The translations under genes and the position numbers were made by a program. This document shows, piece after piece, positions 1,922 through 44,538 of a stretch of DNA of 51,016 bases. The stretch's first letter is position 1; each line of letters starts with the position of its first letter. The notes beneath the pieces were generated by a model. That model saw only the letters and a program-made list of their open reading frames with translations. It was not told where the DNA came from and did no database searches. Source of the DNA: Alistipes sp. Its GTDB lineage: Bacteria > Bacteroidota > Bacteroidia > Bacteroidales > Rikenellaceae. The stretch lies in NCBI GenBank assembly GCA_017646625.1, contig JAGCMF010000017.1, positions 1 through 51,016 of the forward strand, given 5' to 3'.

Positions 1922-1930
1922 TTATACGAG

Positions 1931-1980: not shown

Positions 1981-2135
1981 AGCCTATGTTTCTGTCATTT
2001 ACAGTTAGACTGATTCAATAGCTACTTCATTTTTTGGATTGTACCCCGAATCTGTACCCTACGCACAAAACAATGCCATATATTACTGATAATCAACATA
2101 TCTATAGAATCAAGTGGGAGTAAAAATTCATGTTA

Positions 2136-2226
2136 TGGCGGCGTAGATGCGCCGCTTTGATCAAAAGTCCGAATGGAACCTACTCATCCGGACTTTTTTT
2201 ATGTCAACAACACATCTGCGTCACTC
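2136..2226. repeat. Fragments of the ~126-bp dispersed repeat family (third locus)
   Basis: On the plus strand, GCGGCGTAGATGCGCCGC (about 2138-2155) forms a six-base stem around TAGATG and matches the 'TAGATGCGCC' core at 44381 and 44506. On the minus strand, 2202-2226 reads GTGACGCAGATGTGTTG...GACAT, matching GTGACGTAGATGTGGTGCTGACAT of the 11843-12160 array. The two cores face each other around a terminator hairpin, so this looks like a rearranged or eroded copy. Confidence 0.5.
2163..2200 (+). terminator. Terminator-like hairpin between the repeat cores
   Basis: AAAAGTCCG (2163-2171) pairs with CGGACTTTT (2189-2197) and runs into T residues. No obvious plus-strand gene immediately precedes it other than the antitoxin operon. 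Confidence 0.6.
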
Positions 2227-2251
2227 CTTATATTTTCTAAACTCTCTAATA

Positions 2252-4502: not shown

Positions 4503-4667
4503 CGTCCTAAAATATACCATTATATATATCATCATAACCATTGCCCGCCTCGCCATCGGCACCATAGTCCTCCGATGCTGCGAAACCTCTCTCCACCTCC
4601 ACAGCCACGACATATATATCAGGCGCCTGGTACTCTACATCTACCCTACACATAGTCCTTTCCCCCT

Positions 4668-5822
4668 CTACTTAAACAACATCTGCGCAAACACGCTAAT
4701 GTATACTCGCCAGTTACGCCATGTGTGACCACCCTCACTCTCATAATACTCATAGTCGTAACCCATCCTATCCAGAAGCTCCCTATATCTCACATTCTCA
4801 TCATATAGGAAGTCATCCCTGCCTATGGCAATCCAGTAGAGCTGTGGTGCACGGCTAAACTGCACAGCGAGCTTCGCCTCGAGGTCTGCATATAGCTCCA
4901 CACCCTCCTCGCCACGGAAGATAGCCGCAGAGAAGAGACCCACATAGTCGAACATCGTAGGGTATATCTTCGATATCTGCATAGCATGGAAGCCACCCAT
5001 AGAGAGGCCTGCGATAGCACGCATAGCGCGCTGCGCCTTGGTGCGGTAGTGGTCATCGACCCACGACACCACCTCCTCGAACATCTGCTCAAACGTACCA
5101 TCCATCGAGCCACTCATATATGGGCGCCACATACCCTCATCGGAGTATCCTGGCGCAGCATCATGCCTCATACAGCCATTTGTCATCACCACAATCATCT
5201 CCTCGGCACTACCCGCAGCAATGAGGTTATCCATAATCTCGGCAAGACGTCCTGTTGCCAACCACGCCTCCTCGTCACCACCCATGCCATGTAGGAGATA
5301 GAGCACAGGGTAACGACCCTTGCCATCCTCATATCCTGCGGGGGTATATACCACCATACGGCGGCTACGACCATCCTCAAGAGGCATCCACACGCGCGAC
5401 ACCGTACCGTGAGGCACATGCTGCGCAGCATAGAGACTACCAGGCGTACCAGGGGTGATGAAGTAGTTCATCTGCGTGCCCACATCGCGCATCATATATA
5501 CATTCTGCGGGTCGTGCACATCCCTCATTCCATCAACAACGAAGGAGTAGGTATACAACTCCGAGGCGAGCTGCGGCGTGGTATACTCCCACACGCCATC
5601 CTCACAGCGCACCATAGCCACACTGCCATCTGCCACAAAGTCACCCACAAGGGCTACACTCTGCGCCTCGGGCGCATATAGGCGGAAGGTAACAGTGCCA
5701 TCATCCATAACCTCGGGCGACACGACACCCGCAGTGTGCCAGAGATTCTGCTGCGCAACACCCGACATAGCGCCCATCATAAGGCACAACATCGTAATAA
5801 TAAGTACTCTACACTCTCTCAT
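4668..5822 (-). CDS. Exported CE1-like esterase (esterase D / feruloyl-esterase type) with N-terminal glycogen-binding-like domain, 384 aa
   Basis: A signal peptide (MRECRVLIITMLCLMMGAMSG, cleavage near VAQ) is followed by an immunoglobulin-like E-set/CBM48-type domain at about residues 30-125 (VTFRLYAPEAQSVALVGDF...DGVWEYTTP). An alpha/beta hydrolase domain follows: YPVLYLLHGMGGDEEAW (oxyanion region), nucleophile Ser274 in GLSMGG, a probable acid Asp in IAIGRDDFLYDEN, and the catalytic His in EGGHTW. This architecture is standard for Bacteroidetes CE1 enzymes that remove acyl or feruloyl groups from plant polysaccharides. The actual substrate cannot be read from the sequence. It follows the acyltransferase gene by 34 bp and probably shares its transcript. 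Confidence 0.85.
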   Translation of the reverse strand: MRECRVLIITMLCLMMGAMSGVAQQNLWHTAGVVSPEVMDDGTVTFRLYAPEAQSVALVGDFVADGSVAMVRCEDGVWEYTTPQLASELYTYSFVVDGMRDVHDPQNVYMMRDVGTQMNYFITPGTPGSLYAAQHVPHGTVSRVWMPLEDGRSRRMVVYTPAGYEDGKGRYPVLYLLHGMGGDEEAWLATGRLAEIMDNLIAAGSAEEMIVVMTNGCMRHDAAPGYSDEGMWRPYMSGSMDGTFEQMFEEVVSWVDDHYRTKAQRAMRAIAGLSMGGFHAMQISKIYPTMFDYVGLFSAAIFRGEEGVELYADLEAKLAVQFSRAPQLYWIAIGRDDFLYDENVRYRELLDRMGYDYEYYESEGGHTWRNWRVYISVFAQMLFK

Positions 5823-5856
5823 AATATCATATTTTATTACTCTCTAAAACTATACA

Positions 5857-6876
5857 CTACATCTTTGTCCTTCGGCCAAGAGCATAGTAGCCAACATATG
5901 GCACACGGCATAGGAGGTAGCCCACGGCGAGGCTTGCTGCAGTGACGGCGATGGCCAGAGGCAGGCCAACAAGCAGAGGCACAAAGAGGCTATCCTGCGA
6001 GGTTACCACATCATGCAACATAGGCAAGAAGTTGATGAGCAGGAGGTAGTGTATGACATACACCTCGAGGGTATGACGCCCCACATACTGCATGGCACGC
6101 CCCACGACACCCCTATCCAGCACCTCGGCGAGACGCAAAAAAAGACCATATATCATAACTACGCCCATGATGCCGGCAACAAAGCGCAACATATCTCGCA
6201 CCACCGTGCTATCTACACCCACTATCATAGTTGCCGACATCGCCACGAAGAGCATGGAGCATAGAGCCCACAGCCCATGGCGCGACATATATGCCAAGAA
6301 CCTCTCGCGGTAGCATCCCGCGACAATACCAAAGGCAAAGTATACAAAGTAGTTGAATACTCGCTTAAGACTCAATATGCGCACAAGGGTAGCATCCAGC
6401 CACAGCTCCTCGTCGAGCATACGCATCACGACAGCCACACCAAGCAGTATCCACACAGCATACTTAAGAGCATACCTGCGACGCGAAACAATATAGCGTA
6501 ACAGATAGTATATCAGCAACATAATAAAGAGTGCAAAGGTAAACCAATAGCCGTGTTTGTCTACCGCATAGAAGAAGTCAAAGATACTCCACTCACCAAC
6601 AACAACAGTATATAGCATGCCGAAAAGGAGCACAGGCAGCAGTAGCATCCTGCACTTCTCCACTACCCTACGACACACATCATCACCCGACCATGCCTGA
6701 TCCATGCGGAACGATATGTATCCGCTGATAAAGAAGAAAAGAGGCATGCGAAAGTTGATGAACACATGGTTTATCATCGAGTGATTAGGGATGTATAGAT
6801 GGCTAAATACCACCAATATCATCGTCAATCCTCGTAGGGCATCTACATATCCGACACGCTTTGTTGGGTTAGTCAT
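5857..6876 (-). CDS. Acyltransferase 3 family membrane protein, 339 aa
   Basis: It begins MTNPTKRVGYVDALRGLTMILVVFSH, the conserved start of acyltransferase-3 proteins: the 'DALRG' segment leads into the first membrane helix, with the putative catalytic His in FSH. About ten hydrophobic segments follow, including FRMPLFFFISGYI, another family hallmark. Such enzymes transfer acetyl or succinyl groups onto cell-surface or exported glycans across the inner membrane. I moved the start from 6924 to the ATG at 6876 because the conserved motif begins there and a TAACTTTG promoter box lies at 6895-6902. It heads a likely operon with the esterase and the nuclease. Confidence 0.85.
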   Translation of the reverse strand: MTNPTKRVGYVDALRGLTMILVVFSHLYIPNHSMINHVFINFRMPLFFFISGYISFRMDQAWSGDDVCRRVVEKCRMLLLPVLLFGMLYTVVVGEWSIFDFFYAVDKHGYWFTFALFIMLLIYYLLRYIVSRRRYALKYAVWILLGVAVVMRMLDEELWLDATLVRILSLKRVFNYFVYFAFGIVAGCYRERFLAYMSRHGLWALCSMLFVAMSATMIVGVDSTVVRDMLRFVAGIMGVVMIYGLFLRLAEVLDRGVVGRAMQYVGRHTLEVYVIHYLLLINFLPMLHDVVTSQDSLFVPLLVGLPLAIAVTAASLAVGYLLCRVPYVGYYALGRRTKM

Positions 6877-6894
6877 TACTCTTGTGTTACTGCA

Positions 6895-6902
6895 CAAAGT
6901 TA
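6895..6902 (-). promoter_or_regulatory. -7 box (TAACTTTG) for the acyltransferase operon
   Basis: Read on the minus strand the sequence is TAACTTTG, matching TAnnTTTG, 19 bases upstream of the chosen start codon. No convincing -33 box at the usual spacing. Confidence 0.5.
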
Positions 6903-6997
6903 GTAAAATTTGGTTATATAACACTCCAAACTACGCCTTTTATAACATATGTTTCGATATGAGAGGATGCTGGTGCAATTTTTCGGCACTATTTTCG

Positions 6998-7005
6998 TAT
7001 ATTTG
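6998..7005 (+). promoter_or_regulatory. -7 box (TATATTTG) for the phosphoesterase-hydrolase operon
   Basis: TATATTTG followed by GCAC, 28 bases before the ATG at 7033. It makes the intergenic region 6877-7032 divergent. Confidence 0.6.
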
Positions 7006-7032
7006 CACAACCTTATATCGAAAATATTGAGT

Positions 7033-7521
7033 ATGAAGATTGGCGTTATATCCGACACACATGGCACCTTCGATAGCGTGCTCGAGGAGTTCCTCGCCCC
7101 ATGCGACGAGGTGTGGCATGCTGGCGACTTCGGCTCTATGGAGTGCGCAGACCGCATAGCAGCCTTCAAGCCGCTACGTGCCGTACATGGCAATATCGAC
7201 GGTGGCGTGATGCGTCGTGTATACCACGAGGTTAACTGCTTCGAGATAGAGGGCATGAAGGTGCTTATGATGCACATCGGTGGCTACCCACGCAACTACT
7301 CACCAAAGGCACTGCAACATATACACGTCTTACGACCACGCATCTTCATCTCTGGACACTCACACATCCTCAAGGTTATATACGACCCCATATACGACCT
7401 ACTGCACATAAACCCCGGTGCCGCTGGCACATATGGCATACACAAGGTGCGCACGGCGATACGCTTCGATATAGAGGCCGGAGAGATAAAGAATATGGAG
7501 ATCGGAGAATGGAATAAATAA
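7033..7521 (+). CDS. YfcE/MJ0936-type metallophosphoesterase, 162 aa
   Basis: It begins MKIGVISDTHG, the first metal-binding motif (D-x-H) of calcineurin-like phosphoesterases. The other motifs follow in order: HAGDFGS (GD), VHGNIDG (GN[HD]), a metal-ligand His in LMMHIGGYP, and ISGHSH near residue 115 (G-H-x-H). At 162 residues it matches the small YfcE family, which hydrolyse phosphodiesters with Mn2+ in vitro; the cellular substrate is unknown. The longer frame from 6949 was rejected because it runs through the -7 box. The next gene starts six bases after its stop, so the two are co-transcribed. Confidence 0.9.
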   Translation: MKIGVISDTHGTFDSVLEEFLAPCDEVWHAGDFGSMECADRIAAFKPLRAVHGNIDGGVMRRVYHEVNCFEIEGMKVLMMHIGGYPRNYSPKALQHIHVLRPRIFISGHSHILKVIYDPIYDLLHINPGAAGTYGIHKVRTAIRFDIEAGEIKNMEIGEWNK

Positions 7522-7527
7522 CATATT

Positions 7528-8472
7528 ATGAAAAACTTACTACTTATCATCAGCACCCTAATCATCGGCACCGCAACACTCGCGGCACAGGAGCTGACAC
7601 GCACAACGCTACACTACGCCACAAACGACAACACGGAGCTATACCTCGACCGCTATATGCTTGCCGAGATGCCCGAGACGCCACGCCCATGTATGATCTT
7701 TGCCTTCGGCGGAGGCTTCGTGGGTGGCAAGCGCGACCAGGACTACTACACCACATACTTCACACGTCTTGCAGAGGCAGGATACGTGGTGCTATCGATA
7801 GACTACCGTCTGGGGCTCAAGAATCTGCCCTCGGACATAAACATTGTGGGCATGATTGAGGCTATGGTCAACGCCGTGACAATAGCTGTGGAGGATATAT
7901 ACTCGGCAACGAACTACGCCATAGCCAACGCCGAGGAGTGGATGATAGACAAGGATAAGATTATGATAAGCGGCTCGAGTGCTGGCGCCATCACAGCCCT
8001 GCAGGCAGAGTGGCTACGCTGCAACGGTGCTCGCGAGGCAGAGGTACTACCCGAGGAGTTTAGATATGCCGCCGTGGTGTCGTGCGCAGGAGCCATCTTC
8101 TCGACAAATGGCAAGCCCAAGTTCCAGACGAAGCCAGCCCCCATGCTCCTCTTCCATGGCACATCGGACAGCAACGTACCCTACAACCACGCATCTATAT
8201 TTGGCATAGGATACTACGGCTCGGAGTATATAGCCAAGCAACTCGACAAGCTCGATGCGCCCTACTACTTCTACTCCGCAGAGTATGTAGACCACACATT
8301 GGCGGGCACACCTCTATTCGAGCAGTGCGACCTCATCCTTCAGTTCATCAACGACTATGTCATCGAGGGCCGCACACTACGCACACGCTGCGACGTGGAG
8401 AGCATTGGCACAGAACGCAAGCCCACACGCTTTAGCGTGAAGGATTACCTAAATACCAACTACTCAAAATAA
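7528..8472 (+). CDS. Secreted alpha/beta hydrolase (esterase/lipase type), 314 aa
   Basis: A signal peptide (MKNLLLIISTLIIGTATLAAQ) is followed by an alpha/beta hydrolase fold. The oxyanion segment FAFGGGFVGG takes the place of the HGGG motif of the hormone-sensitive-lipase-like group. The nucleophile is Ser151 in GSSAG. The acid is probably in LLFHGTSDSNVP, and the catalytic His in EYVDHTLAGTP. It is predicted to act in the periplasm or outside the cell on a small ester. Substrate is not predictable. It is coupled to the phosphoesterase upstream (6 bp gap); no terminator is obvious after it. Confidence 0.8.
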   Translation: MKNLLLIISTLIIGTATLAAQELTRTTLHYATNDNTELYLDRYMLAEMPETPRPCMIFAFGGGFVGGKRDQDYYTTYFTRLAEAGYVVLSIDYRLGLKNLPSDINIVGMIEAMVNAVTIAVEDIYSATNYAIANAEEWMIDKDKIMISGSSAGAITALQAEWLRCNGAREAEVLPEEFRYAAVVSCAGAIFSTNGKPKFQTKPAPMLLFHGTSDSNVPYNHASIFGIGYYGSEYIAKQLDKLDAPYYFYSAEYVDHTLAGTPLFEQCDLILQFINDYVIEGRTLRTRCDVESIGTERKPTRFSVKDYLNTNYSK

Positions 8473-8489
8473 CATTGTGGGCACACAGT

Positions 8490-8520
8490 TTTGCTGTTTG
8501 CCTATTTTTTAGTACCTTTG
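8490..8520 (+). promoter_or_regulatory. Promoter for the small membrane protein and mlaEF
   Basis: -33 TTTG at 8490-8493 and -7 TACCTTTG at 8513-8520 with a 19-base spacer, a near-perfect Bacteroidetes housekeeping promoter. It leaves a leader of about 60 bases before the ATG at 8590. Confidence 0.75.
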
Positions 8521-8589
8521 CACGATTGTAGTCGCGCACGTACGCATAGTCGACAACAATTTTAGTAGATTAGTAACATTAGACAACAC

Positions 8590-9054
8590 ATGGCATACCT
8601 AAAGATAATCTTTTTCGGCATCCTTGCCGCAATAGAACGCCACCCCGTGTTCTTCATCACCATGGCCCTCATAGCCATCTTTGCACCATTTGTCTTCAAG
8701 TGGTTCTTGTGGGTGCTCCTCGGAATCCTCATCCTCGCCATCCTCGGCATACTCTTCGCCGTGCTCCGCTTCCGTAGGATGAAGCGACAGCTCGAGAAGC
8801 AGATGCACCAGATGGGTGGTGGCGCTGGCTTCGGTGGTATGGGAGGTGCTGGCTTCGGCGGCATGGGAGGCGCTACAGGCTTCGGTGGCATGGGCGCAAA
8901 CCCCAACATGACCCTTGAGGACTTCGTGCGCGAGATGCAGGCTGCGGCAGACGCACGACAGCAGCAGAGGCCACAACAGCACAACAACGGAGGCTCGTCA
9001 CAGACCTCAAGCGTAGACTCTTCAGACTACGTAGACTTCGAGGAGGTGAAGTAA
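8590..9054 (+). CDS. Small membrane protein with Gly/Met/Phe-rich linker (DUF4834-like), 154 aa
   Basis: Two hydrophobic stretches (about residues 5-60, AIERHPVFFITMALIAIFAPFV and LWVLLGILILAILGILFAVL) are followed by a basic segment (RFRRMKRQLEKQMHQM). Next comes a repeated FGGMGGAGFGGMGG linker, a Gln/Asn-rich stretch, and a conserved-looking acidic end SDYVDFEEVK. The layout resembles DUF4834 proteins of Bacteroidetes, but I assign that cautiously. It precedes mlaE by 31 bp with no terminator and shares its promoter, suggesting a link with outer-membrane lipid transport. The C-terminal FEEVK resembles the tail of DnaK in this window; probably coincidence. Confidence 0.65.
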   Translation: MAYLKIIFFGILAAIERHPVFFITMALIAIFAPFVFKWFLWVLLGILILAILGILFAVLRFRRMKRQLEKQMHQMGGGAGFGGMGGAGFGGMGGATGFGGMGANPNMTLEDFVREMQAAADARQQQRPQQHNNGGSSQTSSVDSSDYVDFEEVK

Positions 9055-9085
9055 CAAGCTACCCAAACGATAAAAACAGATAACA

Positions 9086-9829
9086 ATGATTGCTCTATTT
9101 GAGAACATAGGACGCTACTTCATGCTTCTGGGCAAGGTATTCTCGCGTCCAGAGAAGATGGGCATCTACTACCGTAAGATATGGTTCGAGGTGGAGGCCT
9201 TGGGCTTCAACTCCATATCTTTGACAGCCATCATCTCCGCCTTCATCGGTGCTGTCGTAGCACTACAGATGGCCATAACCCTCGAGTCACCATTCATTCC
9301 ACAGTTCATGATTGGTTACGCCACACGTGAGGTGATGGTCCTCGAGTTCTCATCAACCGTCGTTGCCCTCATCCTCGCGGGTAAGATTGGCTCGAACATA
9401 GCATCCGAGATTGGTACTATGCGTATCACCGAGCAGATTGATGCCCTCGAGATTATGGGTGTCAACTCGGCATCATACCTCATCCTACCAAAGATTGTGG
9501 CCACAGTGATCTTCTTCCCACTGCTCACACTCTTCAGCATCTTTGTCGGCATCGTGGGTGGATATGCCATTGCCTACCTCACAGGCATCATGCTCCCCGG
9601 CGACTACATCGAGGGTCTCTTCTACTACTTCGAGCCCTTCTCCATAGTCTATGCACTTGTCAAAGGCTCTGTCTTTGCCTTCATCATAACCTCGATATCG
9701 GCATACTGCGGTTACTACGCCAAGGGTAACTCCCTGGAGGTGGGTCGTGCCTCGACACGTGCCGTGGTATCGAGCTCCGTGACAATCATGATTTTCGACC
9801 TCATCTTAACACAAATTATGCGTGTATGA
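9086..9829 (+). CDS. mlaE: MlaE-type ABC transporter permease, 247 aa
   Basis: The length and pattern match MlaE/YrbE: an N-terminal amphipathic helix (MIALFENIGRYFMLLGKVF) and about five membrane helices. Conserved cytoplasmic elements include REVMVLEFSSTVVALILAGKIGSNIASEIGTM and EQIDALEIMGVNSASYLILP, the EQIDAL coupling segment that contacts the ATPase. It moves phospholipid between inner and outer membrane with MlaF and an MCE-domain protein (MlaD). Its stop overlaps the mlaF start (ATGA at 9826-9829). No MCE-domain gene is present downstream in this window, where gap follows mlaF. Confidence 0.93.
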   Translation: MIALFENIGRYFMLLGKVFSRPEKMGIYYRKIWFEVEALGFNSISLTAIISAFIGAVVALQMAITLESPFIPQFMIGYATREVMVLEFSSTVVALILAGKIGSNIASEIGTMRITEQIDALEIMGVNSASYLILPKIVATVIFFPLLTLFSIFVGIVGGYAIAYLTGIMLPGDYIEGLFYYFEPFSIVYALVKGSVFAFIITSISAYCGYYAKGNSLEVGRASTRAVVSSSVTIMIFDLILTQIMRV

Positions 9830-10581
9830 TACGAGCAGACCACATATCAAAGACCTTCGATGGTCGCACCGTGCTTGACGACATAAGCGTTGAGTTCGAC
9901 ACAGGCAAGACAAACCTAATCATCGGTCGTAGTGGCTCGGGTAAGACCGTGCTCCTTAAGTCACTCGTGGGCCTCCACGATGTAGACAAGGGCAACATCT
10001 TCTTCGATGACGTGTGCTACACGAAGCTAAACTTCGCAGAACGTAAAAATATACGCAAGGATATAGGCATGATCTTCCAGGGCGGAGCACTCCTCGACTC
10101 ATCTACCGTGCGCGAGAATGTACGCCTACCCCTCGACCTCTTCACCGAGATGACCGAGGGCGAGAAGCGCGACAGGGTTAACTTCTGCCTGGAACGTGTG
10201 CGTCTTAATGGTGCCGACCACCTATACCCCTCGGAGTTGAGTGGCGGTATGGTTAAGCGTGTTGCCATAGCCCGCGCCATAGTACTAAACCCCCGCTACC
10301 TCTTCTGCGACGAGCCCAACTCGGGTCTCGACCCACAGACATCGGTGGTCATCGACAACCTCATCCACGACATCACCAAGGAGTTTAATATCACCACGAT
10401 AATAAACACCCACGACATGAACTCGGTGATGGAGATTGGCGAGAAGATTGTATACATTCACGAGGGTCATAAGTGGTGGGAAGGTAGCAAGGATAACATC
10501 TTGGAGGCCGACAACCGCGAGCTCAACGAGTTCGTCTTCGCCTCGGCAATGGCAAAAAGAGCAAAAAGCGTATCGCGATAG
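9826..10581 (+). CDS. mlaF: MlaF-type ABC transporter ATP-binding protein, 251 aa
   Basis: A complete nucleotide-binding domain: Walker A GRSGSGKT (about residues 33-40), Q-loop IFQGGALLDSSTV, signature LSGGM, Walker B YLFCDEPNSGLDP and the switch His in NTHDMNSV. The GALLDS segment after the Q-loop and the MVKRVAIARAI helix are typical of the MlaF/Mkl group. It powers MlaE-mediated lipid movement at the inner membrane and is translated from a 4-base overlap with mlaE. The operon appears to end here, as gap has its own promoter from 10613. Confidence 0.93.
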   Translation: MIRADHISKTFDGRTVLDDISVEFDTGKTNLIIGRSGSGKTVLLKSLVGLHDVDKGNIFFDDVCYTKLNFAERKNIRKDIGMIFQGGALLDSSTVRENVRLPLDLFTEMTEGEKRDRVNFCLERVRLNGADHLYPSELSGGMVKRVAIARAIVLNPRYLFCDEPNSGLDPQTSVVIDNLIHDITKEFNITTIINTHDMNSVMEIGEKIVYIHEGHKWWEGSKDNILEADNRELNEFVFASAMAKRAKSVSR

Positions 10582-10612
10582 AGCATTTTTTATTAAGAAA
10601 TTTTAATTTCGC

Positions 10613-10643
10613 TTGCTTTACTCGCTAAATACTGCTAAATTTG
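10613..10643 (+). promoter_or_regulatory. Promoter of gap
   Basis: TTGC at 10613-10616 and TAAATTTG at 10636-10643, 19-base spacer. The leader before the ATG at 10697 is about 47 bases and very AT-rich. Confidence 0.65.
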
Positions 10644-10657
10644 TAAGCCGTTTTTAA

Positions 10658-11713
<1,056 letters not shown>

Positions 11714-11745
11714 TCTTCTGCAGCGCATTAGCGACAGATAAAGCG

Positions 11746-11780
11746 AAAGACCATCCACAGCCGTGGGTGGTCTTTTTTTG
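11746..11780 (+). terminator. Terminator of gap
   Basis: AGACCATCCAC (11748-11758) pairs with GTGGGTGGTCT (11763-11773) with one mismatch-tolerant pair; loop AGCC, then seven T. Confidence 0.9.
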
Positions 11781-11842
11781 TGTATATGGTCTCTATGCAG
11801 CAGCCGTGTTATGCCTGACCTCGACATGAAATTGGGATGAAT

Positions 11843-12160
11843 GGGTAGTACTTGACGTACGTCCCATTGACGGCGTCGATTGAAGTGCCGCAGATGCGTC
11901 GCTATCACGCCATGCAGTTTATCGTCAGAGTGACGTAGATGTGGTGCTGACATGAGAAAGCCGTCGATGGGTAGTACTTGACGTACGTCCCATTGACGGC
12001 GTCGATTGAAGTGACGCAGATGCGTCGCTATCACGCCATGCAGTTTATCGTCAGAGTGACGTAGATGTGGTGCTGACATGAGAAAGCCGTCGATGGGTAG
12101 TACTTAACGTACGTCCCATTGACGGCGTCGATTGAAGTGACGCAGATGCGTCGCTATCAC
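11843..12160. repeat. Tandem array of a 126-bp structured repeat, about 2.5 copies
   Basis: The unit beginning GGGTAGTACTTGACGTACGT starts at 11843, 11969 and 12095, exactly 126 bases apart; the third copy stops after about 66 bases at the end of the response-regulator gene. Copies differ at only a few positions (for example GTGCCGCAG versus GTGACGCAG). Each unit contains a hairpin GGGTAGTAC-TTGAC-GTACGTCCC, a small stem GACGC-AGAT-GCGTC, and a second related core GTGACGTAGATGTGG. The same architecture recurs, strongly diverged, at 44378-44525. There is no conserved terminal inverted repeat or target duplication that I can see. The array fills the space between two converging genes; 11781-11842 holds nothing else. 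Confidence 0.9.
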
Positions 12161-12166
12161 GATAAA

Positions 12167-12820
12167 CTATATCTCGACAAGGTGCTTCTTAATGGCATAC
12201 ACCACAAGGTTAGCAGTATTCTTACACCCTGTCTTCTCGAGGATGTTAGCACGATGCTTATCCACGGTGCGCTTGGAGATGAATAGCTTGTCGGCAATCT
12301 CCTGGTTAGATAGTCCGCGGCACACCTCAACAAGAATCTCTATCTCGCGTTCAGAGAGTGCATCATCATCACCCGATACGGTTGTTGCAAGACGACTCAT
12401 ATTGCGTGTTAGTGAACCAAGAAGTGCGGTGCTGAAGTAGCTATCGCCCTTGACAACGCTATCTACAGCGGAGTATACCTCCTCGATATCGGAGTCTTTT
12501 AGAAGGAAGCCCGAGGCGCCACACTCCACCATTAGTGAGTAGTAGTGGTCGTCGCCATACATAGATAGTGTTATGACCTTGAGGTCGGGGCGTAGCATTA
12601 GGGCACGACGTGTGGTCTCGGCACCATCGATGCCGGGCATGGATATATCCATGAATACCACATCTACAGCCAACGTGGGTAGCGTGGCGAGAAACTCCTC
12701 ACCGCTACCAAAGTCACCCACCACATCATAGCTCTCGCACTGCGACAATAGACCACGAAGGCCTGTGCGGAAAAGCGTATGATCATCAACAAGTACTATC
12801 TTAACCTTTTCTCCTACCAT
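12167..12820 (-). CDS. NarL/FixJ-family response regulator, 217 aa
   Basis: An N-terminal receiver domain (VKIVLVDDHTLFRTGL) has phospho-acceptor Asp58 in VVFMDISMPG and Lys in GFLLKDSD. A C-terminal LuxR-type helix-turn-helix follows (about residues 150-215): LSEREIEILVEVCRGLSNQEIADKLFISKRTVDKHRANI. It should be phosphorylated by the histidine kinase encoded just upstream, whose gene overlaps it by 20 bases. Together they sit at the end of the mreB-to-surE transcription unit. The target genes are not identifiable. The coding end abuts the 126-bp repeat array with only about six bases between. Confidence 0.9.
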   Translation of the reverse strand: MVGEKVKIVLVDDHTLFRTGLRGLLSQCESYDVVGDFGSGEEFLATLPTLAVDVVFMDISMPGIDGAETTRRALMLRPDLKVITLSMYGDDHYYSLMVECGASGFLLKDSDIEEVYSAVDSVVKGDSYFSTALLGSLTRNMSRLATTVSGDDDALSEREIEILVEVCRGLSNQEIADKLFISKRTVDKHRANILEKTGCKNTANLVVYAIKKHLVEI

Positions 12821-13826
12821 TTCTTCCTCTACGTTCTCTTTTGTTATTGCTTATCTGCTCATATATATCTGCTGCCACATGCTCTATGCTACCATCCGTA
12901 GCCACGGCTATGCGTGCCGTCATGCCAGCATTAGGTCTACTATTTATTATAATCTTACCGCCGAGAGATGATACTCGGGAACGTATGTTCGAGAGGCCCA
13001 TGCCACACTGCTCGACACTCTGTGGCGTAAAGCCGCAGCCATTGTCACCATACTCTACAATAAGGCATCCATTGGCGTGACGCAGAGATAGGTTTATCGT
13101 TGTGCAGTGTGAGTGCTTAAGCGAGTTATTTATAAGCTCGCAGACCACACGATAGAGTATCACCTCGATGTTGGAGTCGAAGCGTTCGTCACGCAGGTCG
13201 GTGCTAAACTCTATCTTCACCTCATGCATCGCCGAGAGCCTATCCACGAAGTTCTTAATGCCACGTGCAAGGCCGAAGTTGTTTAGAACATGAGGGGATA
13301 GGTTGTTAGATATCTCACGTAGCGAACGTATGGCCTCATCTATCACCTGCGAGGTGTTGCGCAACGTCATCCTCTCCTTCTCTGTAAGCTCTGCGCGGCC
13401 GAGTGCCGAGAGTGACATCTTGGCAGAGGAGAGCAGCGGGCCTATGCCATCGTGGAGCTCGCGTGAGAATACATCGCGCTGGCGTTCCTCGGTGCGTAGC
13501 ACAGCTGTCATTAGACGCTTCTCAAGTTCACGACGCTGGTGTGTGACCCTATCTACATGGTTTACGAGAAGACGAGCACAGACAACGCATATGGAGAAGC
13601 TCACAGAGACCACTATACCCACCCACGCGAAGGCAAGGGGTGGCACATTGCCACCATCTATCTGGTAGAGCTGCAACACCCTCTCGGCGCCGAGCAGCAC
13701 AAGGCTGATGATACAGCATATCCACAGCGCCATGAACTTTGTCCTGTTGACAAGCAACAGCGCAGTGACTGTGGCCACAACAAGCAGCACTATAGATAGC
13801 ACTATGAGTATCTCAACAACTGTCAT
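12801..13826 (-). CDS. Sensor histidine kinase of the HisKA_3 (NarX/DegS-like) type, 341 aa
   Basis: Three or so N-terminal membrane segments (about residues 2-26, 32-50, 66-90) with almost no periplasmic domain are followed by a coiled-coil-like helix. The HisKA_3 dimerisation motif carries the phosphorylated His125 in SRELHDGIGPLLSSAKMSL. The ATPase domain has the N box ELINNSLKHS, the G1 box YGDNGCGF and the G2 box GMGLSNIRSRV. The sensing part is essentially the membrane itself, suggesting an intramembrane or envelope-derived signal. The start codon is 12 bp downstream of the surE stop, and the gene overlaps the response regulator, so it appears to be co-transcribed with the cell-shape genes. 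Confidence 0.9.
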   Translation of the reverse strand: MTVVEILIVLSIVLLVVATVTALLLVNRTKFMALWICCIISLVLLGAERVLQLYQIDGGNVPPLAFAWVGIVVSVSFSICVVCARLLVNHVDRVTHQRRELEKRLMTAVLRTEERQRDVFSRELHDGIGPLLSSAKMSLSALGRAELTEKERMTLRNTSQVIDEAIRSLREISNNLSPHVLNNFGLARGIKNFVDRLSAMHEVKIEFSTDLRDERFDSNIEVILYRVVCELINNSLKHSHCTTINLSLRHANGCLIVEYGDNGCGFTPQSVEQCGMGLSNIRSRVSSLGGKIIINSRPNAGMTARIAVATDGSIEHVAADIYEQISNNKRERRGRNGRRKG

Positions 13827-13838
13827 AGCGGGATATTG

Positions 13839-14615
13839 TTATAACACTCCGTCGAGTGCCTTTAGCTGTTTGTAGTCTGTCATGTCTGTCTGCACGGGCA
13901 CTACAGCAACATAGTTATTCTTAAGTGCCCACTCATCGGTATCCTGTGCCTCGGGCTCGGCATTATGGAATGCTCCTGTGAGCCAGAAGTAGTCACGACC
14001 CTGGGGATCCTGACGTGCATAGAAGTCCTCACGCCAGAAGCCGCGTGTCTGACGGGCAAGACGTATACCCTTGATGTCGGCAGCCGCGCAGCGTGGCACA
14101 TTCACATTTAGGCATAGTGGTCGTGGAAGTCTATCAGCAGCGCCAAGCACGGCGGCGATGACCTCTCTGCCATACTTTACAGCACCCTCGAAGTCGGCAT
14201 CTGCGGCGTGATCGTCGAGAGAGAGGCCTATGGCTGGGACATTATAGAAGCTACCCTCAATAGCAGCGCCCATAGTACCCGAGTACATGACATTTACCGC
14301 AGCATTAGAGCCATGGTTGATGCCCGAGAGCACCATGTCTACCCTCTGCTCCTTAAAGAAGTGGTCGAATGCTATCTTCGCGCAATCTACGGGTGTGCCC
14401 GAGAAGGCGTATATCTCGACACCATCTGTAGCCTCCACCTGACGCAGGAAGAGAGGTGCGTTGATTGTTATTGCCTGGCTCATGCCACTCTGCACACGGT
14501 CGGGGGCTATGGCCACAACCCTACCGAACTCGCGCGCAAGGTTTACAGCAGCACGAAAGCCCTTCGAAAGGTAGCTATCATCGTTGGTGAGGAATATAAG
14601 TCGTTCGTTATCCAT
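13839..14615 (-). CDS. surE: SurE-type 5'/3'-nucleotidase, 258 aa
   Basis: SurE enzymes remove phosphate from nucleoside monophosphates and act in stationary-phase survival. Family motifs in order: the metal-binding IFLTNDDSYLSKG near residue 10 (the usual form is NDDG; here Ser replaces the Gly), APDRVQSGMSQAIT with the metal-ligand Ser, SGTPVDCAKIA, and LSGINHGSNAAVNVMYSGTMGAA with the Asn ligand. Length is normal. It lies 14 bp after rodA on the same strand and 12 bp before the histidine kinase. The Asp-Asp metal ligands are intact, so it is expected to be active. Confidence 0.93.
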   Translation of the reverse strand: MDNERLIFLTNDDSYLSKGFRAAVNLAREFGRVVAIAPDRVQSGMSQAITINAPLFLRQVEATDGVEIYAFSGTPVDCAKIAFDHFFKEQRVDMVLSGINHGSNAAVNVMYSGTMGAAIEGSFYNVPAIGLSLDDHAADADFEGAVKYGREVIAAVLGAADRLPRPLCLNVNVPRCAAADIKGIRLARQTRGFWREDFYARQDPQGRDYFWLTGAFHNAEPEAQDTDEWALKNNYVAVVPVQTDMTDYKQLKALDGVL

Positions 14616-14629
14616 AATGGGTACTTATG

Positions 14630-16069
14630 TTATATGTAAATGTCGTTTTCGTTTGTCGAGGCATCGAGGCGTATGGCAATCATGATGAGTAGCGTGAAGG
14701 CCACCAGCGACGAGCCACCATAGCTCATCAGCGGCAGTGGGATACCCATGACGGGCATCACACCGATGGTCATGCCTATGTTCACCAGCACATGCAGCAG
14801 GAGTATCGCTGCCACAGAGTAGCAGTATATACGCCCAAAGGGCTCTTTTATCCTCTCGCCCATGCGCATGAGGCGCAGTATGAGGGATACATAGAGTAGC
14901 ACGACGACGGTGCAACCGAAGAATCCCCACTCCTCGCCCACGATGCAGAAGATGAAGTCTGTATGTTTCTCGGGCACATAGTCATACTTAATCTGTGTAC
15001 CCTCCATGAAACCCTTACCCCACATGCCACCCGAGCCGATGGCAATCTCCGACTGGTTGACATTATATCCTACACCACGAGGGTCATCAACAAGGCCTAC
15101 GAAGGTGAGGATACGGTTCTTCTGGTGCTCCTCGAGGTGCGAGAAGAGCACATCTGTTGTGGGCACGAAGAGCATGGCATATACGAACATGGCGATAGGC
15201 CATAGCAGCATCATCGTGCGGGTCTTTATGGCGAGTACGGCAAGTACCACGGCAGCAATACCGCACACCGTCATTAGCGCGGCATAGCCACTCATAGGCG
15301 TGACGAGGGCCAAGAATAGCGAGGCGAGGAATACGCCACAGAGGAAGCGGAAGTGCCCCACAACCTCACCCGTCTTAAGCGCGTTATAGAGGGTGAAGAG
15401 CACTAACAACGCTATGAATATTGTCAGCGGGGTGAAGATGAACGAGATGACAAAGAGCACCACGGTGAATAGTGCAGGGAAGTAGATATACTTCGATAGT
15501 CCCTCGCGGTAGAAGACAAAGAGGAAGGCGCCGAGCACAAGTCCCGAGCCTGTGTCGTTCTGCAAGACGATGATGCCCAGGGGTAGTAGTATCACAGCAC
15601 CCACCTTTATAAGGTCTGGCAGACGCTTGATGTTAAACGAGTAATCACTCATCACACGCGCCATCATCAGCGCCGTGGCAATCTTAACAAACTCAACGGG
15701 TTGTATACGCACACTGCCGAACTCAAACCATGCCTTCGCACCATTAACTTCACGGCCGAAGAATAGCGCGGCGAGCAGTGCCAGGATACCAAGAGCATAG
15801 GCCGGGTAGGCAAACATATGGAAGAGCCTACGATCCAGCAGCAACACCACCGTAGCCATAATCCACGATATAGAGACCCATATGATCTGCTTCATATAGT
15901 TGTGGCTCAACGAGAAGATACCTCCCTTCTCGGGGTCATAGGAGGCTGAGGTTATACACATAACACCTATAAGCACAATGGTGACATAGAGGGCCAAAGC
16001 CACCTTGTCGACAGCACCAAATAGCGAGGTACTTGTGTTACGTCGTGATATATTGTAGTCAGATATCAT
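14630..16069 (-). CDS. rodA: Rod-shape peptidoglycan glycosyltransferase RodA (SEDS family), 479 aa
   Basis: About ten to twelve membrane helices with SEDS landmarks: NGAKAWFEFGSVRIQPVEFVKIATAL (substrate region), LQNDTGSGLVLG, the large extracellular loop with SGGMWGKGFMEGTQIKYDYVPEKHTDFIFCIVGEEWGF (containing the catalytic Asp region), and MPVMGIPLPLMSYGGSSLVA. It polymerises lipid II together with the class B transpeptidase encoded immediately upstream (20 bp gap). At 479 residues it is longer than E. coli RodA (370), because of extra sequence in the central hydrophobic part, as in other Bacteroidetes. Confidence 0.95.
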   Translation of the reverse strand: MISDYNISRRNTSTSLFGAVDKVALALYVTIVLIGVMCITSASYDPEKGGIFSLSHNYMKQIIWVSISWIMATVVLLLDRRLFHMFAYPAYALGILALLAALFFGREVNGAKAWFEFGSVRIQPVEFVKIATALMMARVMSDYSFNIKRLPDLIKVGAVILLPLGIIVLQNDTGSGLVLGAFLFVFYREGLSKYIYFPALFTVVLFVISFIFTPLTIFIALLVLFTLYNALKTGEVVGHFRFLCGVFLASLFLALVTPMSGYAALMTVCGIAAVVLAVLAIKTRTMMLLWPIAMFVYAMLFVPTTDVLFSHLEEHQKNRILTFVGLVDDPRGVGYNVNQSEIAIGSGGMWGKGFMEGTQIKYDYVPEKHTDFIFCIVGEEWGFFGCTVVVLLYVSLILRLMRMGERIKEPFGRIYCYSVAAILLLHVLVNIGMTIGVMPVMGIPLPLMSYGGSSLVAFTLLIMIAIRLDASTNENDIYI

Positions 16070-16090
16070 ACTCTAATCTGCTCTATTCTA

Positions 16091-17956
16091 TTACTTTTTA
16101 CTCTTTGCGCGGTCAGCATCGTAGCGCTGCTGCTTCTTGTCGTACTGGTAGTAGTTTGGAGTGAAGTTGAGGACCTCCTCGACAAGCTGTGGGCGCATTA
16201 TGGTGTCGGTGAGATACAACTCCTCAATGAGGCTCGCAATAGGCACAGCTATTGCCGAGCCGAAGCCACCATGCTCAACATATACCGAGATGGCGATGCG
16301 CGGGTTATCCTTCGGTGCAAACGACAGGAACGTTGAGTGGTCCTTACCATTAGGGTTCTCCGCAGTACCCGTCTTACCACACACGTCCAAGCCCTCGAGG
16401 TATGCACGGCGTGACGTACCTGACACATTAACACTTCGCCACATACCCTCAACCACAGGCACAAAGTTTGTTGAGTCTACCATCGTATAGTTACGCTGGT
16501 AGAAGCGTGCATCGATAGAGTCACGACCCTCGATATGCTTGATGATATGAGGTGTGTAGTAGTAACCTCTATTTGCCACGATGGCAGCGAGGTTGGCCAT
16601 CTGCAGTGGCGTACATCCCATCTCACCCTGGCCGATGGCGCACGATATCACCGTACCCCAGTTCCATCTGCCATTATAGCCCCTATCGTAGAACTCGGGA
16701 GTGGGCACATAACCAGCACCCTCACCATAGAGGTCCGTGCCGAGCTGGCGACCAAAGCCGAAGCTATATACATACTCATTCCAGACACGCACACCCTCCT
16801 TGATGTTGCCATACTTCGCATTTGTAATCATGTCGCGGAAGACATAGCAGAAGTAGGCGTTACATGACTGCGCCACAGCCTCACGGAAGTCTATAGGCGA
16901 GTTATGTGGGTGGCATCCCATCTTTCGCGTGCCATAGCTAAAACCGCCATTACAAGGGTAGCGGTCGCTGGTGCGCAACACACCCTCCTGCAAGCCTATG
17001 AGGCCCTGCACAAGCTTAAAGGTTGAGCCTGGAGGATACTTCGCCTTGACAGCACGGTTGAACTGCGGCTGACGCATATTATGCATCATGGCAGCATAGT
17101 TGTTATTTCGCTGACGACCAACCATAAGGTCGGGGTCATAGGTTGGTGATGACACCATGACAAGAATCTCACCCGTAGATGGCTCTATGGCCACAACAGC
17201 ACCAATCTTACCCACCATGAGCTCCTCGGCAAACTCCTGAAGGCGAGCATCGATGGTTGATGTTAGCTGTGCACCCTTGACCGGGAGTATGTCATCGGCA
17301 CCATCCTTATAGGCACCCTGCAGCGCACCATACGAGTCATACATACGGTAGCTAACGCCCTTCTCGCCACGCAGCTCCGTCTCATATGCCGACTCCACGC
17401 CACCCACGCCGATGTAGTCACCCACCTCGTAGTACTCCCAGCGACTCACCTGCTCGGGTGTAACCTCACTGACATAGCCAAGGAGGTTACCACCAATCTT
17501 ACGTGGGTACTCGCGGGCTGTTCTGAAGCGTGTATGAAAGCCACTGAAGCCACCCTCATCCAGGAGCAGCTTATTCTCCTGCGAGAGGTAGCCGGCAACG
17601 AGTATAGGAGCACGTGGGCTCTTCGACGCCTTATTAAGCTGGCTAGCGAGCTTCTCGGGCGTGATTTCGAGGATGGTGGCAAGACGTGTGGTATCGAAGC
17701 CCTCCTTTGGAAGCTCACGGTAGATGACCATCACGTCGTAGCACACACGGCTCTTTACGAGGTACTCACCACGTCTGTCAAGCACCTCACCACGCATAGG
17801 ATACTCTATCTCGGCACGCACAATGTTAGAGGTGGCACGTGCATCATACTCATCCGACAATATCTGCATGGAGAACAGACGTATGAGCAATACAGCACCC
17901 ACAAACATTACGACGAGGCGTAGTATTCGGTAGCGTATATATCCCTTATCTTGCAT
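16091..17956 (-). CDS. mrdA: Penicillin-binding protein 2, peptidoglycan transpeptidase, 621 aa
   Basis: A single N-terminal membrane helix (IRYRILRLVVMFVGAVLLIRLF) is followed by a PBP dimerisation domain with YPMRGEVLDRRGEYLV. The transpeptidase domain carries YPPGSTFK (active-site Ser and Lys of SxxK), SCNAYF (SxN) and CGKTGTAENP (KTGT). It cross-links new wall during elongation and partners with RodA. The stop is 21 bp before the rodA start and its first codon overlaps the mreD stop by one base. All catalytic motifs are intact. Confidence 0.95.
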   Translation of the reverse strand: MQDKGYIRYRILRLVVMFVGAVLLIRLFSMQILSDEYDARATSNIVRAEIEYPMRGEVLDRRGEYLVKSRVCYDVMVIYRELPKEGFDTTRLATILEITPEKLASQLNKASKSPRAPILVAGYLSQENKLLLDEGGFSGFHTRFRTAREYPRKIGGNLLGYVSEVTPEQVSRWEYYEVGDYIGVGGVESAYETELRGEKGVSYRMYDSYGALQGAYKDGADDILPVKGAQLTSTIDARLQEFAEELMVGKIGAVVAIEPSTGEILVMVSSPTYDPDLMVGRQRNNNYAAMMHNMRQPQFNRAVKAKYPPGSTFKLVQGLIGLQEGVLRTSDRYPCNGGFSYGTRKMGCHPHNSPIDFREAVAQSCNAYFCYVFRDMITNAKYGNIKEGVRVWNEYVYSFGFGRQLGTDLYGEGAGYVPTPEFYDRGYNGRWNWGTVISCAIGQGEMGCTPLQMANLAAIVANRGYYYTPHIIKHIEGRDSIDARFYQRNYTMVDSTNFVPVVEGMWRSVNVSGTSRRAYLEGLDVCGKTGTAENPNGKDHSTFLSFAPKDNPRIAISVYVEHGGFGSAIAVPIASLIEELYLTDTIMRPQLVEEVLNFTPNYYQYDKKQQRYDADRAKSKK

Positions 17957-18471
17957 TACTTGGTAACGATTTTTGAGGTGAAGAGTCTAACGATGGGCCA
18001 CGCGATGAGTAGCGAGAGCAACGTGCTGAAGATGATAGTGGCTATGAGCTGCAGCAGCGCACCGAACGACAACGCCTCAAGGATGAAGAAGAGGGTGTGG
18101 TGCACAAACAACATACCACCCACATATATCATCAGCTGGCGCAATGACATACGCGAGAGCAGCGACGACTGGTCACCCGCCTCGACACTACGTCCTGTGG
18201 TGACAAAGAGTATCGTGCGACGCATGATGGCCATAGGCAGCAGCGTAGCAGTATATAGTCCCGCGCCACCCAACGACATATCCATGATGAGGCCTACGAC
18301 GAGGCTCGTGATAAGCACCCATATAGTTCGCCACTCCATGGGCAGCAACACCACAATAAGAGGGAAGAGCATGGGGCGCAGCCACATGGCAATAGATAGT
18401 TGGTTGAGGATGAAGATGTCGAGCAGCAGCACTGCAAGTGTCATCCAAAAATATGCTATATTCTTAAACAT
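17956..18471 (-). CDS. mreD: Rod-shape-determining membrane protein MreD, 171 aa
   Basis: Five to six hydrophobic segments in a 171-residue protein, with no soluble domain. The call rests on size, topology and exact position between mreC and mrdA, the standard order. MreD links MreC and the MreB filament to the elongation synthases in the inner membrane. It overlaps mrdA by one base and follows mreC by 19 bp. Confidence 0.88.
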   Translation of the reverse strand: MFKNIAYFWMTLAVLLLDIFILNQLSIAMWLRPMLFPLIVVLLPMEWRTIWVLITSLVVGLIMDMSLGGAGLYTATLLPMAIMRRTILFVTTGRSVEAGDQSSLLSRMSLRQLMIYVGGMLFVHHTLFFILEALSFGALLQLIATIIFSTLLSLLIAWPIVRLFTSKIVTK

Positions 18472-18490
18472 CGTAGTCTTAAGCGTTTAG

Positions 18491-19321: not shown

Positions 19322-19337
19322 AATCTAATTTTAGAGA

Positions 19338-19421: not shown

Positions 19422-19430
19422 ACCACAATA

Positions 19431-26339: not shown

Positions 26340-26427
26340 ATATTAAAAGAGATAATATTACATTTCATCTAAAAAGCTGCCGACGTATGACGTCTGTGGG
26401 TGGAGAGAGCTGCATATGAACAAAGAT

Positions 26428-26476
26428 ATTGCCCAGCATGGGTGCACTTTAAATCGTACACCCCATTCTGGGCAAT
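26428..26476 (-). terminator. Long hairpin downstream of lpdA
   Basis: ATTGCCCAGCATGGGTG (from 26428) pairs with the end of 26457-26476 (CACCCCATTCTGGGCAAT) with one mismatch and one bulge. The following minus-strand bases ATATCTTTG give only a modest T-tract. It is the likely end of the dipeptidase-lpdA transcript. Confidence 0.65.
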
Positions 26477-26513
26477 GATTACGAGATAGCAGACGACTGC
26501 CTATCTCAAAATA

Positions 26514-27893
26514 TTACATGTGGATAGCGCAACCGAGAGCATCCTCTGCCGCCTCCATAACCGCCTCATGCATTGATGGGTGGGCATGTATAGTGCGGGC
26601 AATGCGGTGTGCACTGACGCCGAGAACCTTTGCAAGGGTTGGCTCACCAATCATCTCGGTGACGTTATGTCCCACGAAGTGAGCACCGAGGAGGTGTTCG
26701 TCGGCATCGAAGATGAGCTTCACGAAGCCATCACGTTCGCCAGCAGCAGTAGCCTTACCCGATGCTGTATATGGGAACTTACCCACCTTATACTCTATAC
26801 CCTGTGCCTTCACCTGTGCCTCGGTCATACCTACAGAGGCGACCTCTGGAGATGTGAAGATGCAAGATGGTATTGTAGAGTAGTCAACAGCCTCGGGGTT
26901 GAGTCCACAGATATGCTCCACGCAGTGTATAGCCTCGGCAGAGGCCACATGTGCAAGGGCAGGTGTGGCAATGATATCACCGATGGCATATACACCATCA
27001 ACAGATGTTTTGTAGTGCTCATCTACCTTCACCTTATCACGTTCTATAGCCACGCCAAGCTCCTCGAGACCCATATCCTCGATGTTAGACTTGATGCCCA
27101 CAGCCGAGAGAACGACATCTGCCTCGAGTATCTGCTCGCCCTTCTTACCCTCAACGACAACGTCGCACTTGCCATCCTCGCGCACAGCAACAGACTTAAC
27201 GGTTGTTGAGGTCATCACCGTTGCACGCAGCTTACGGAAGGCACGTTCCATAGCCTTTGCAGTATCCTCATCCTCAAGAGGCATAATCTGTGGCATATAC
27301 TCTACGATGGTGACCTTAACGCCCAATGTTGCGTAGATATATGCGAACTCCGAGCCTATGGCACCCGAGCCTACGACAACCATTGTCTCGGGGAGCTCGG
27401 GAAGCACAAGAGCCTCCTTTGATGATATGATGTGCTTGCCGTCGATTGGCATGAATGGCATCACGCGAGGACGTGCACCTGTAGCGAGGATGATGTTATC
27501 AGCCTCATAGTCCACACCCTCAACCTCAACGGTATCGGCAGCCTTGAGGCGACCGAAGCCAGCAATGACATCGATGTTGTTCTTCTTGAGGAGGAACTGA
27601 ACACCCTTGTTCATTGTTGTTGCAACCATACGTTCGCGTTCCACCATCTTTGTCCAGTCGGGCTTAACCTCACCCTCAATAGCCACGCCATATGTTGCAG
27701 CAGCCTTGCAGTCGGCAAATACCTGTGCTGAACGCACAAGAGCCTTTGTGGGTATGCAACCCCAGTTTAGGCATACGCCACCAGCATCAGCCTTCTCTAC
27801 GATGGCAACACGCTTGCCACACTGTGCAGCATGGATGGCAGCAACATAGCCACCAGGACCCGAGCCGATAACGATTATATCATATCTATCCAT
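26514..27893 (-). CDS. lpdA: Dihydrolipoyl dehydrogenase, 459 aa
   Basis: Flavoprotein (E3) that reoxidises dihydrolipoamide of 2-oxoacid dehydrogenases or the glycine cleavage system. FAD motif IVIGSGPGGYVAAIHAAQCG; redox-active disulfide GGVCLNWGCIPTKALV; NAD motif VVVGSGAIGSEFAYIYATLG; second FAD motif VYAIGDIIATPALAHVASAE; C-terminal HAHPSMHEAVMEA with the active-site His-Glu pair. All catalytic parts are intact. No E1/E2 genes are near, though gcvT of the glycine system lies about 21 kb away in this window. It follows the dipeptidase by 25 bp and is probably co-transcribed. Confidence 0.95.
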   Translation of the reverse strand: MDRYDIIVIGSGPGGYVAAIHAAQCGKRVAIVEKADAGGVCLNWGCIPTKALVRSAQVFADCKAAATYGVAIEGEVKPDWTKMVERERMVATTMNKGVQFLLKKNNIDVIAGFGRLKAADTVEVEGVDYEADNIILATGARPRVMPFMPIDGKHIISSKEALVLPELPETMVVVGSGAIGSEFAYIYATLGVKVTIVEYMPQIMPLEDEDTAKAMERAFRKLRATVMTSTTVKSVAVREDGKCDVVVEGKKGEQILEADVVLSAVGIKSNIEDMGLEELGVAIERDKVKVDEHYKTSVDGVYAIGDIIATPALAHVASAEAIHCVEHICGLNPEAVDYSTIPSCIFTSPEVASVGMTEAQVKAQGIEYKVGKFPYTASGKATAAGERDGFVKLIFDADEHLLGAHFVGHNVTEMIGEPTLAKVLGVSAHRIARTIHAHPSMHEAVMEAAEDALGCAIHM

Positions 27894-44313: not shown

Positions 44314-44377
44314 AGGTTATATAGCAAGAGATAATTCTAGCTGAACTACTAGATCTCCTTATTACACCACCTTAAAG

Positions 44378-44525
44378 AGGTAGATGCGCCGTTATGATAA
44401 ATTATTTGTTGTCAGAATGGTGCAGATACAATGCTCGGCGAATTTCGAGGCGATGGGCTGTACTTTAGCGTACTGCCCATTGCCAAGATAATTCGTTAGC
44501 AGAAGTAGATGCGCCATTATCACAA
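44378..44525. repeat. Diverged copy of the 126-bp dispersed repeat
   Basis: Core TAGATGCGCC occurs at 44381 and again at 44506, 125 bases apart, mirroring the 126-bp period at 11843-12160. In between, CGATGGGCTGTACTTTAGCG aligns with CGATGGGTAGTACTTGACG of the array, and TTGTTGTCAGAATGGTGCAGAT with TTATCGTCAGAGTGACGTAGAT. The hairpin is conserved: GGGCTGTAC (44455-44463) / GTACTGCCC (44470-44478) pairs at 8 of 9 positions although the loop and inner bases changed. It lies between two converging genes, like the array. Confidence 0.75.
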
Positions 44526-44538
44526 CAAAGAACCTAGA

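Follow-up and report, generated by a model that had tools for sequence, protein, structure and literature searches.

Small interspersed repeats are usually regarded as tolerated clutter near gene ends. Among the described families, SPRITE is an interspersed repeat with a terminator-like hairpin and a T-rich tract that, in the available part of its description, is enriched near the 3' ends of genes and is suggested to be a co-opted terminator; as given there, it has 30 copies, an 18-bp duplex, and ends limited to AAAA/TTTT. ERIC/RU-1 and YPAL/RU-2 are palindromic, MITE-type enterobacterial repeats of 127 and 168 bp, and ERIC, which carries short terminal repeats with TA, affects the transcripts next to it (PMC2229807, in the portion available). 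Additionally, HMP2_4205, HMP2_1065, and HMP2_1032 are palindromic terminator candidates of Bacteroidetes, and the first of these is a 132-bp palindrome, a predicted terminator, and found mostly in Bacteroidetes (available text of PMC8040213).

The array considered here lies in a 51,016-nucleotide stretch of Alistipes sp. DNA, the whole of which was analysed and is called the window (contig C17 of a 1.87-Mb, 37-contig assembly). It belongs to a family of ~125-bp elements that is present in three genera of one bacterial family and sits on stop codons in one orientation. As far as the accessible description of SPRITE extends, the two have in common a terminator-like hairpin and T-rich tract near gene 3' ends, but the Alistipes element is a three-part palindrome with longer covarying ends, an offset-exact sense fusion to the stop codon, and tandem arrays. 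Compared by description with ERIC and YPAL, it differs in its exact stop-codon fusion and variable complementary ends, which are not described in the portion of PMC2229807 available. REP/BIME sequences with RAYT resemble it in being short extragenic palindromes of high copy number whose hairpin is the recognised form (PMC3733652, in part); the REP/BIME end tag, GTAG or CGTC, is absent, the consensus ends of the element being TAATTT...AAATT. Similarly, BOX elements are modular repeats whose terminal repeats pair in the fold, but, compared by description, the Alistipes element swaps its modules inside one frame of fixed size (PMC3049150, in part). No description of this family was found in the available portions of the literature searched (PMC4679880, PMC3733652, PMC2229807, PMC10969869, PMC3049150, and PMC8040213), and sense stop-codon fusion with variable complementary ends does not occur in the accessible descriptions of SPRITE, ERIC/YPAL, BOX, or REP. 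The terminator candidates of PMC8040213, known here by description in part of that text rather than by sequence, might include members of the family.

The array and its flanking genes

The element was modelled twice (R1 and R2), and R2 is a covariance model trained on 54 sequences, all of them from genomes other than this assembly. The array comprises three units behind a response regulator gene:

12041..12169, minus strand: unit 1, stop-proximal and intact (R2 E 1.8e-22; R1 126.4 bits; single-copy folds)
12159..12166, minus strand: left end arm of unit 1, TTTATCGT, which pairs with the right end arm (sequence; R2 alignment)
12044..12051, minus strand: right end arm of unit 1, ACGATAAA (sequence; R2 alignment)
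12086..12126, minus strand: central hairpin GCCGTC-AATGGGAC-GTAC-loop-GTAC-TACCCATC-GACGGC, then TTTCT (sequence; fold; covarying helix 2)
11915..12041, minus strand: unit 2, left end arm eroded (R1 103.6 bits; R2 E 1.1e-17 for 11915-12038)
11802..11914, minus strand: unit 3, decayed (R1 47.8 bits and R2 E 1.9e-6, both for 11802-11903)
12167..12820, minus strand: response regulator gene with receiver and LuxR-type domains (PF00072 E 3.9e-23; PF00196 E 3.2e-18)
10697..11713, plus strand: glyceraldehyde-3-phosphate dehydrogenase gene, convergent (PF02800, PF00044)
11745..11776, plus strand: ordinary terminator-like hairpin of the dehydrogenase gene, outside the repeat family (pattern scan, consensus match only)

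The TAG stop codon of the response regulator gene (12167-12169) is the start of unit 1, in which stop and end arm are followed by the left part, the central hairpin with its T-run, the right part, and the second end arm (on the minus strand, TAG-TTTATCGTGATAG, left part, GCCGTC-AATGGG-AC-GTAC-loop-GTAC-TA-CCCATC-GACGGC-TTTCT, right part, CTCTGACGATAAACT). Over 121 bases, units 1 and 2 share 99.2% identity. On the minus strand the array is phased from 12169 to 12041 and from 12041 to 11915, with the decayed unit then running to about 11802. An earlier note, made from the letters of the window, had read the last copy as truncated and terminal repeats as missing; the stretch in question belongs to the intact stop-proximal unit in this phase, and the terminal inverted repeats TTTATCGT / ACGATAAA exist and covary. 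The same note had placed the array between converging genes. This is correct for the dehydrogenase gene, but the family does not require such a setting, and the gene downstream of a copy is often co-directional. Because the dehydrogenase gene has a terminator-like hairpin of its own, the array is assigned to the response regulator. In a generic terminator scan of window positions 1-20000, the window copies of the element were absent from the output.

Other family loci in the window

Model R2 recovered, in addition to the array, the relatives near 44.4 kb and 2.1 kb that had been pointed out before, all three loci being real, and it matched a remote relative:

44402..44532, minus strand: diverged complete unit (R2 E 2.1e-17)
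44369..44401, minus strand: left-half remnant behind the unit at 44402 (by eye; no model match)
2123..2236, plus strand: diverged unit (R2 E 9.1e-6)
26383..26516, minus strand: remote relative (R2 E 5.5e-4; R1 E 0.0086)

The unit at 44402-44532 begins 9 bases past the stop of the gene at 44539-45024 (minus strand), and the remote relative starts on the stop codon, TAA, of the gene upstream. The unit at 2123-2236 has the same order of left part, terminator-like hairpin, and right part, and its left end is without a gene stop. The pairing previously counted for the first hairpin of the two main loci (7 of 9 and 8 of 9 positions) was found correct by eye. Additionally, positions 36244-36355 (plus strand) give a weak family-model match (R2 E 0.028) and are possibly a very old copy. 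Over the window, Rfam at gathering score returned RNase P alone, a bacterial class A RNase P RNA at 23124-23477 on the minus strand (RF00010, E 2.7e-74), and the repeat has no Rfam family match.

Copy number and distribution

Across the whole assembly, model R1 gave 101 matches at E 0.01 or better, a figure that includes both strands since the element reads as a palindrome. Merging by hand reduced them to 67 places, six of which are contig-end pieces and perhaps repeats of the same physical copy. In each of three relatives 150 candidates were scored, and the matches at E 1e-6 numbered 149, 139, and 136, again with both strands included. The core pattern occurs in at least 114 stretches of the public genome collection, and the titles among the 80 matches listed are Alistipes sp., Rikenellaceae bacterium, and one Bacteroidales bacterium. 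Within the same bacterial family the element is present in 37 of 150 genomes, its own included (E 1e-4, stricter filters), which fall in 3 of the 22 genera sampled; the element is missing from several 99%-complete genomes of its own genus, and none of 197 other genomes in a draw over the order carries it.

Of this assembly's 37 contigs, 11 have an element copy within 250 bases of an end, and the family probably breaks short-read assemblies. For instance, the 12.6-kb contig C9 (L184) has the same 121-base element piece at both ends and shares it with the ends of C21 and C28, and therefore the assembly breaks at the repeat. Several contigs (C31, C3, C18, C7, C9, C21, and C28; loci L177, L178, L181, L182, and L184-L186) carry a composite repeat of roughly 265 bases that wraps one element subtype, and its outermost arms (such as GAGAGTGAATAA) vary among loci and match within a locus, as judged by eye.

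Anatomy, pairing and covariation

A unit of ~125 bases consists of paired ends (AATTT-N5 / N5-AAATT), a left part, a central GTAC hairpin with a T-run, and a right part. Behind gene stops, 93 copies were found, and a filter on length and on agreement of the ends retained 86 of them; 66 of the 86, hand-picked and including 12 from this genome, form alignment A1. In A1, the cells of the two helices are 94.0% paired (97.7% in the central helix), 19 of 28 pairs have changed on both sides, and the covariation score is 0.350, against 0.099 when shuffled and at most 0.066 when slid. The earlier note had held that the locus would shrink to a local duplication if further copies and covariation were both lacking. 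Many more copies and strong covariation were found, which upholds its reading of a chromosomal repeat family under structural constraint.

The outer stem is a structure set by the analyst, RNAalifold by itself predicting the central hairpin only. None of 20000 permutations of the variable end bases pairs as well in the filtered set; since the 86-copy filter favours paired ends, the fair test of end pairing uses all 93 copies. In this unfiltered set, the best end match is 11.0 of 14 with a copy's own partner and 9.1 with swapped partners. End pairing extends into the stop codon, whose last two bases exceed the cross control (0.83 vs 0.68 and 0.76 vs 0.66) and whose T pairs at background (0.24 vs 0.21). 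Only TTT/AAA and the inner bases are constant at the ends, and the five variable end bases form 28 distinct end pairs in the 66 rows. Typical MITE features are present in the length of ~125 bp, the terminal inverted repeats, and a lack of coding judged by size; a fixed-end MITE, with the same terminal sequence in all copies, is inconsistent with these 28 end pairs. Variable yet complementary ends do not fit a fixed-terminus transposase, and therefore recognition of shape over sequence becomes testable.

If pairing were under no selection, and one arm were copied onto the other by quasi-palindrome correction (template switching in replication or repair), then blind correction would erase mismatches. 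In contrast, mismatches at fixed places persist in both stems of most copies (A1 columns 15/132, 17/130, and 64-65/80-81). Such correction is consistent with the scarcity of G-U intermediates, with the agreement by eye between the locus-specific outer arms of the composite repeats, and with the long simple-sequence palindromes that adjoin many copies in relatives, but we consider it a very improbable source of the pairing.

Position at stop codons

The position of units was scored relative to genes of at least 90 stop-free codons, with a stop counted within -15 to +25 bases of a unit end. In other genomes, a gene stop lies at the left end in 90 of 110 testable copies (49 at offset 0) and at the right end in 3 of 109. 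In this genome, 55 of the 67 places were used, the rest being at contig ends, truncated, or otherwise omitted by hand; a left-end stop was found in 31 of 51 testable copies (22 at offset 0) and a right-end stop in 3 of 50, and many of the 20 copies without a left-end gene stop are inner array members. Offset 0 is partly set by the model, because the model starts at TAA, and the contrast between left and right is unaffected. The earlier reading as a whole is thus partly supported: family and constraint were right, and the main feature, sense fusion to stop codons, was missed.

The element also has terminator-type features, with a GC-rich hairpin and T-run behind a gene in the sense orientation. 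At least 5 T occur in the 8 bases past the stem in 55 of 66 copies, and the run is weak in the other 11. Lying in sense on stop codons at dozens of loci per genome, the family may define the 3' termini of numerous transcripts in common gut bacteria. In 21 of 26 arrays the unit nearest the stop has the higher score, but because the model comes from stop-proximal copies and the arrays were hand-picked, both of which favour such units, array-order scores are not used as an argument.

DNA or RNA as the folded form

Selection on a sense RNA is expected to favour G-U over A-C, and a sense A-C is an antisense G-T. The best 150 of 240 matches supplied 120 distinct places at which both were counted. 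Among 1799 cells of the central stem, G-U and A-C occur 9 times each; among 1510 of the outer stem, the sense strand shows 17 G-U against 53 A-C, and when this stem is reduced to its 76 distinct haplotypes the figures are 17 and 43. Corrected for composition, the fold of the antisense strand is the better one in 49 of 66 copies (mean z -10.2 vs -8.7 for sense), and in some copies it is one long rod. One of four copies folded as DNA (L011) goes in the opposite direction by z-score. Because G-U is not favoured and the antisense strand folds better, the pairing is read as acting at the DNA level. The bias, behind which stand few independent lineages, is a sign that the folded antisense DNA strand may matter.

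These counts bear on whether the element is instead a structured cis-acting RNA of the 3' untranslated region, selected for its RNA fold and active in stability, processing, or termination-coupled control. Its sense orientation directly past the stop codon, its strong covariation, and the folding of the sense RNA far below shuffles (mean z -8.7) agree with such a role, but G-U is not preferred over A-C (9:9 central, 17:53 outer), the antisense strand folds better, and the right arm lies past the T-run, so that a transcript terminated there would be without it. We therefore hold this explanation to be highly doubtful. Of the two kinds of repeat that had been proposed for the array, REP/MITE-like holds, whereas a structured RNA as the conserved entity is less likely than folded DNA.

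Integron attC sites likewise fold from one strand, the bottom strand, with variable paired arms and fixed unpaired bases, and are placed after stop codons; their end boxes are RYYYAAC ... GTTRRRY. The Alistipes element is similar in its fold (antisense strand, variable paired arms, fixed unpaired bases) and in its place after stop codons, but unlike attC it is found after many chromosomal genes. As an attC site it was rejected: its AAC-like box occupies the right end, with the order reversed, and in column 132 the 66 rows have G 34 times and A 31 times.

Turnover among copies and relatives

In this genome, pairs of copies that are 99.2% identical stand behind different genes (C18:93059 and C14:6040; C8:119647 and C31:55598). 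The response regulator is present in 121 genomes. Its 30 best orthologues were read, and in 6 of them a full unit stands at the stop codon, the subtypes differing. The response-regulator tree, on which L152 and L155 carry element parts and were scored as none, has many open forks and 6 presence changes, at least 4 of them forced by supported branches.

Syntenic stretches of two relatives, G073 and G059, in blocks mostly 87-95% identical, allowed 8 loci to be compared (a ninth, whose upstream gene differs, was left out). The element or its remains are kept at 7 of the 8, and therefore inheritance outweighs new insertion at this distance. At the response-regulator locus the element is gone in G059, which has a derived gene end in common with G073. 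At one of the kept loci, the shared unit of G073 is separated from the stop codon by an extra unit of a different subtype, and at another (case 6) G073 has an extra unit behind the shared one. Elsewhere the spot is kept in relatives while the whole element differs (case 5) or the stems differ in step on both sides (case 9). In case 8 it is the end arms that differ, being CTTGT/ACAAG in G073, GTCGT/ACGAC in G059, and ATCGT/ACGAT in G090, both sides changing in step. L162 and L166 have common ends and different central hairpins.

The strongest rival explanation is that the copies are old, non-mobile gene-end terminators, frequently lost and homogenised without transposition by concerted evolution through ectopic gene conversion, and that they abut the stop because terminators of this lineage lie there. 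The retention of 7 of 8 loci between G073 and G059 agrees with this, as do the whole-element and stem swaps at kept spots, which resemble conversion, and the ordinary terminators found within a few bases of the stop in some orthologues that lack the element (L144 and L147 among them). It is less easily reconciled with the additional unit that separates stop codon from shared unit in G073 and is of another subtype, with the scattered presence behind the response regulator, or with the longer tandem arrays and patchy presence across the genus. The absence of a transposase partner among the three enzyme families examined (below) is in its favour, and on balance we rate it as possible but somewhat unlikely.

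Candidate partners and proposed mechanism

The earlier note had seen no transposase; likewise, no Y1 (REP-type, RAYT) transposase was found in this assembly (G000, 90.7% complete). In the family, Y1 occurs in 4 of 150 genomes and in just 1 of the 37 with elements, and the element differs in this from REP/BIME. Reverse transcriptase (RT; in 5 of 16 genomes rich in the element and 9 of 16 that lack it) and IS110 (1 of 16 and 3 of 16) were also rejected as partners. Among the collected loci, a longer, autonomous version with the same ends was represented by only 3 short cases of 186-252 bases. TA, AATT, and T were weighed as target duplications; right flanks vary, and the loci compared gave no clean empty/filled pair.

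Beside the observed anatomy, covariation, stop-codon position, repeated copies, and unit turnover, the reading to which we give about an even chance is that the array is one locus of a high-copy, terminator-bearing, MITE/REP-like palindrome family that is fused to stop codons, enters there, and overwrites residents. The central hairpin and T-run would end transcription of the upstream gene, which would make the element a gene-end module. New copies would enter at or beside the stop codon and shift older units downstream, giving rise to tandem arrays, and resident copies could be overwritten by others through ectopic gene conversion or re-insertion, the spot being kept and the sequence swapped. 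Pairing would be kept at the DNA level, probably since a putative copying machinery recognises the folded antisense strand; the copying activity may be general host recombination. It is a more specific and quite unlikely proposal that a mobile element targets the translational stop codon itself, inserting in sense, bringing or sharing the stop bases, carrying a terminator, and being recognised as folded antisense DNA, with end arms variable yet complementary as if one were copied from the other.

Further modules and neighbouring palindromes

In some loci, a second hairpin (GCTCATTTAC...GTAAACTCCGC) replaces the GTAC hairpin within the same frame (L206/L207, L211, and L213, at G073 60889, G059 60151, and G090 10245). 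This hairpin also stands alone behind the response regulator of L144. In addition, some inner array units (L068, L139, L142, and others) have the left end GGTCTCACG.TGG..AGG instead of TTT-N5-RTAAGG, and this left end is a further module of the family. Six probes for long palindromes with simple-sequence arms found none in the window. In relatives, such palindromes (TTTAAGGAATTTAGGGAG..., AGGACCTTAGGACC...) stand behind many genes and elements (L164, L165, L169, L113, L208-L212, and others).
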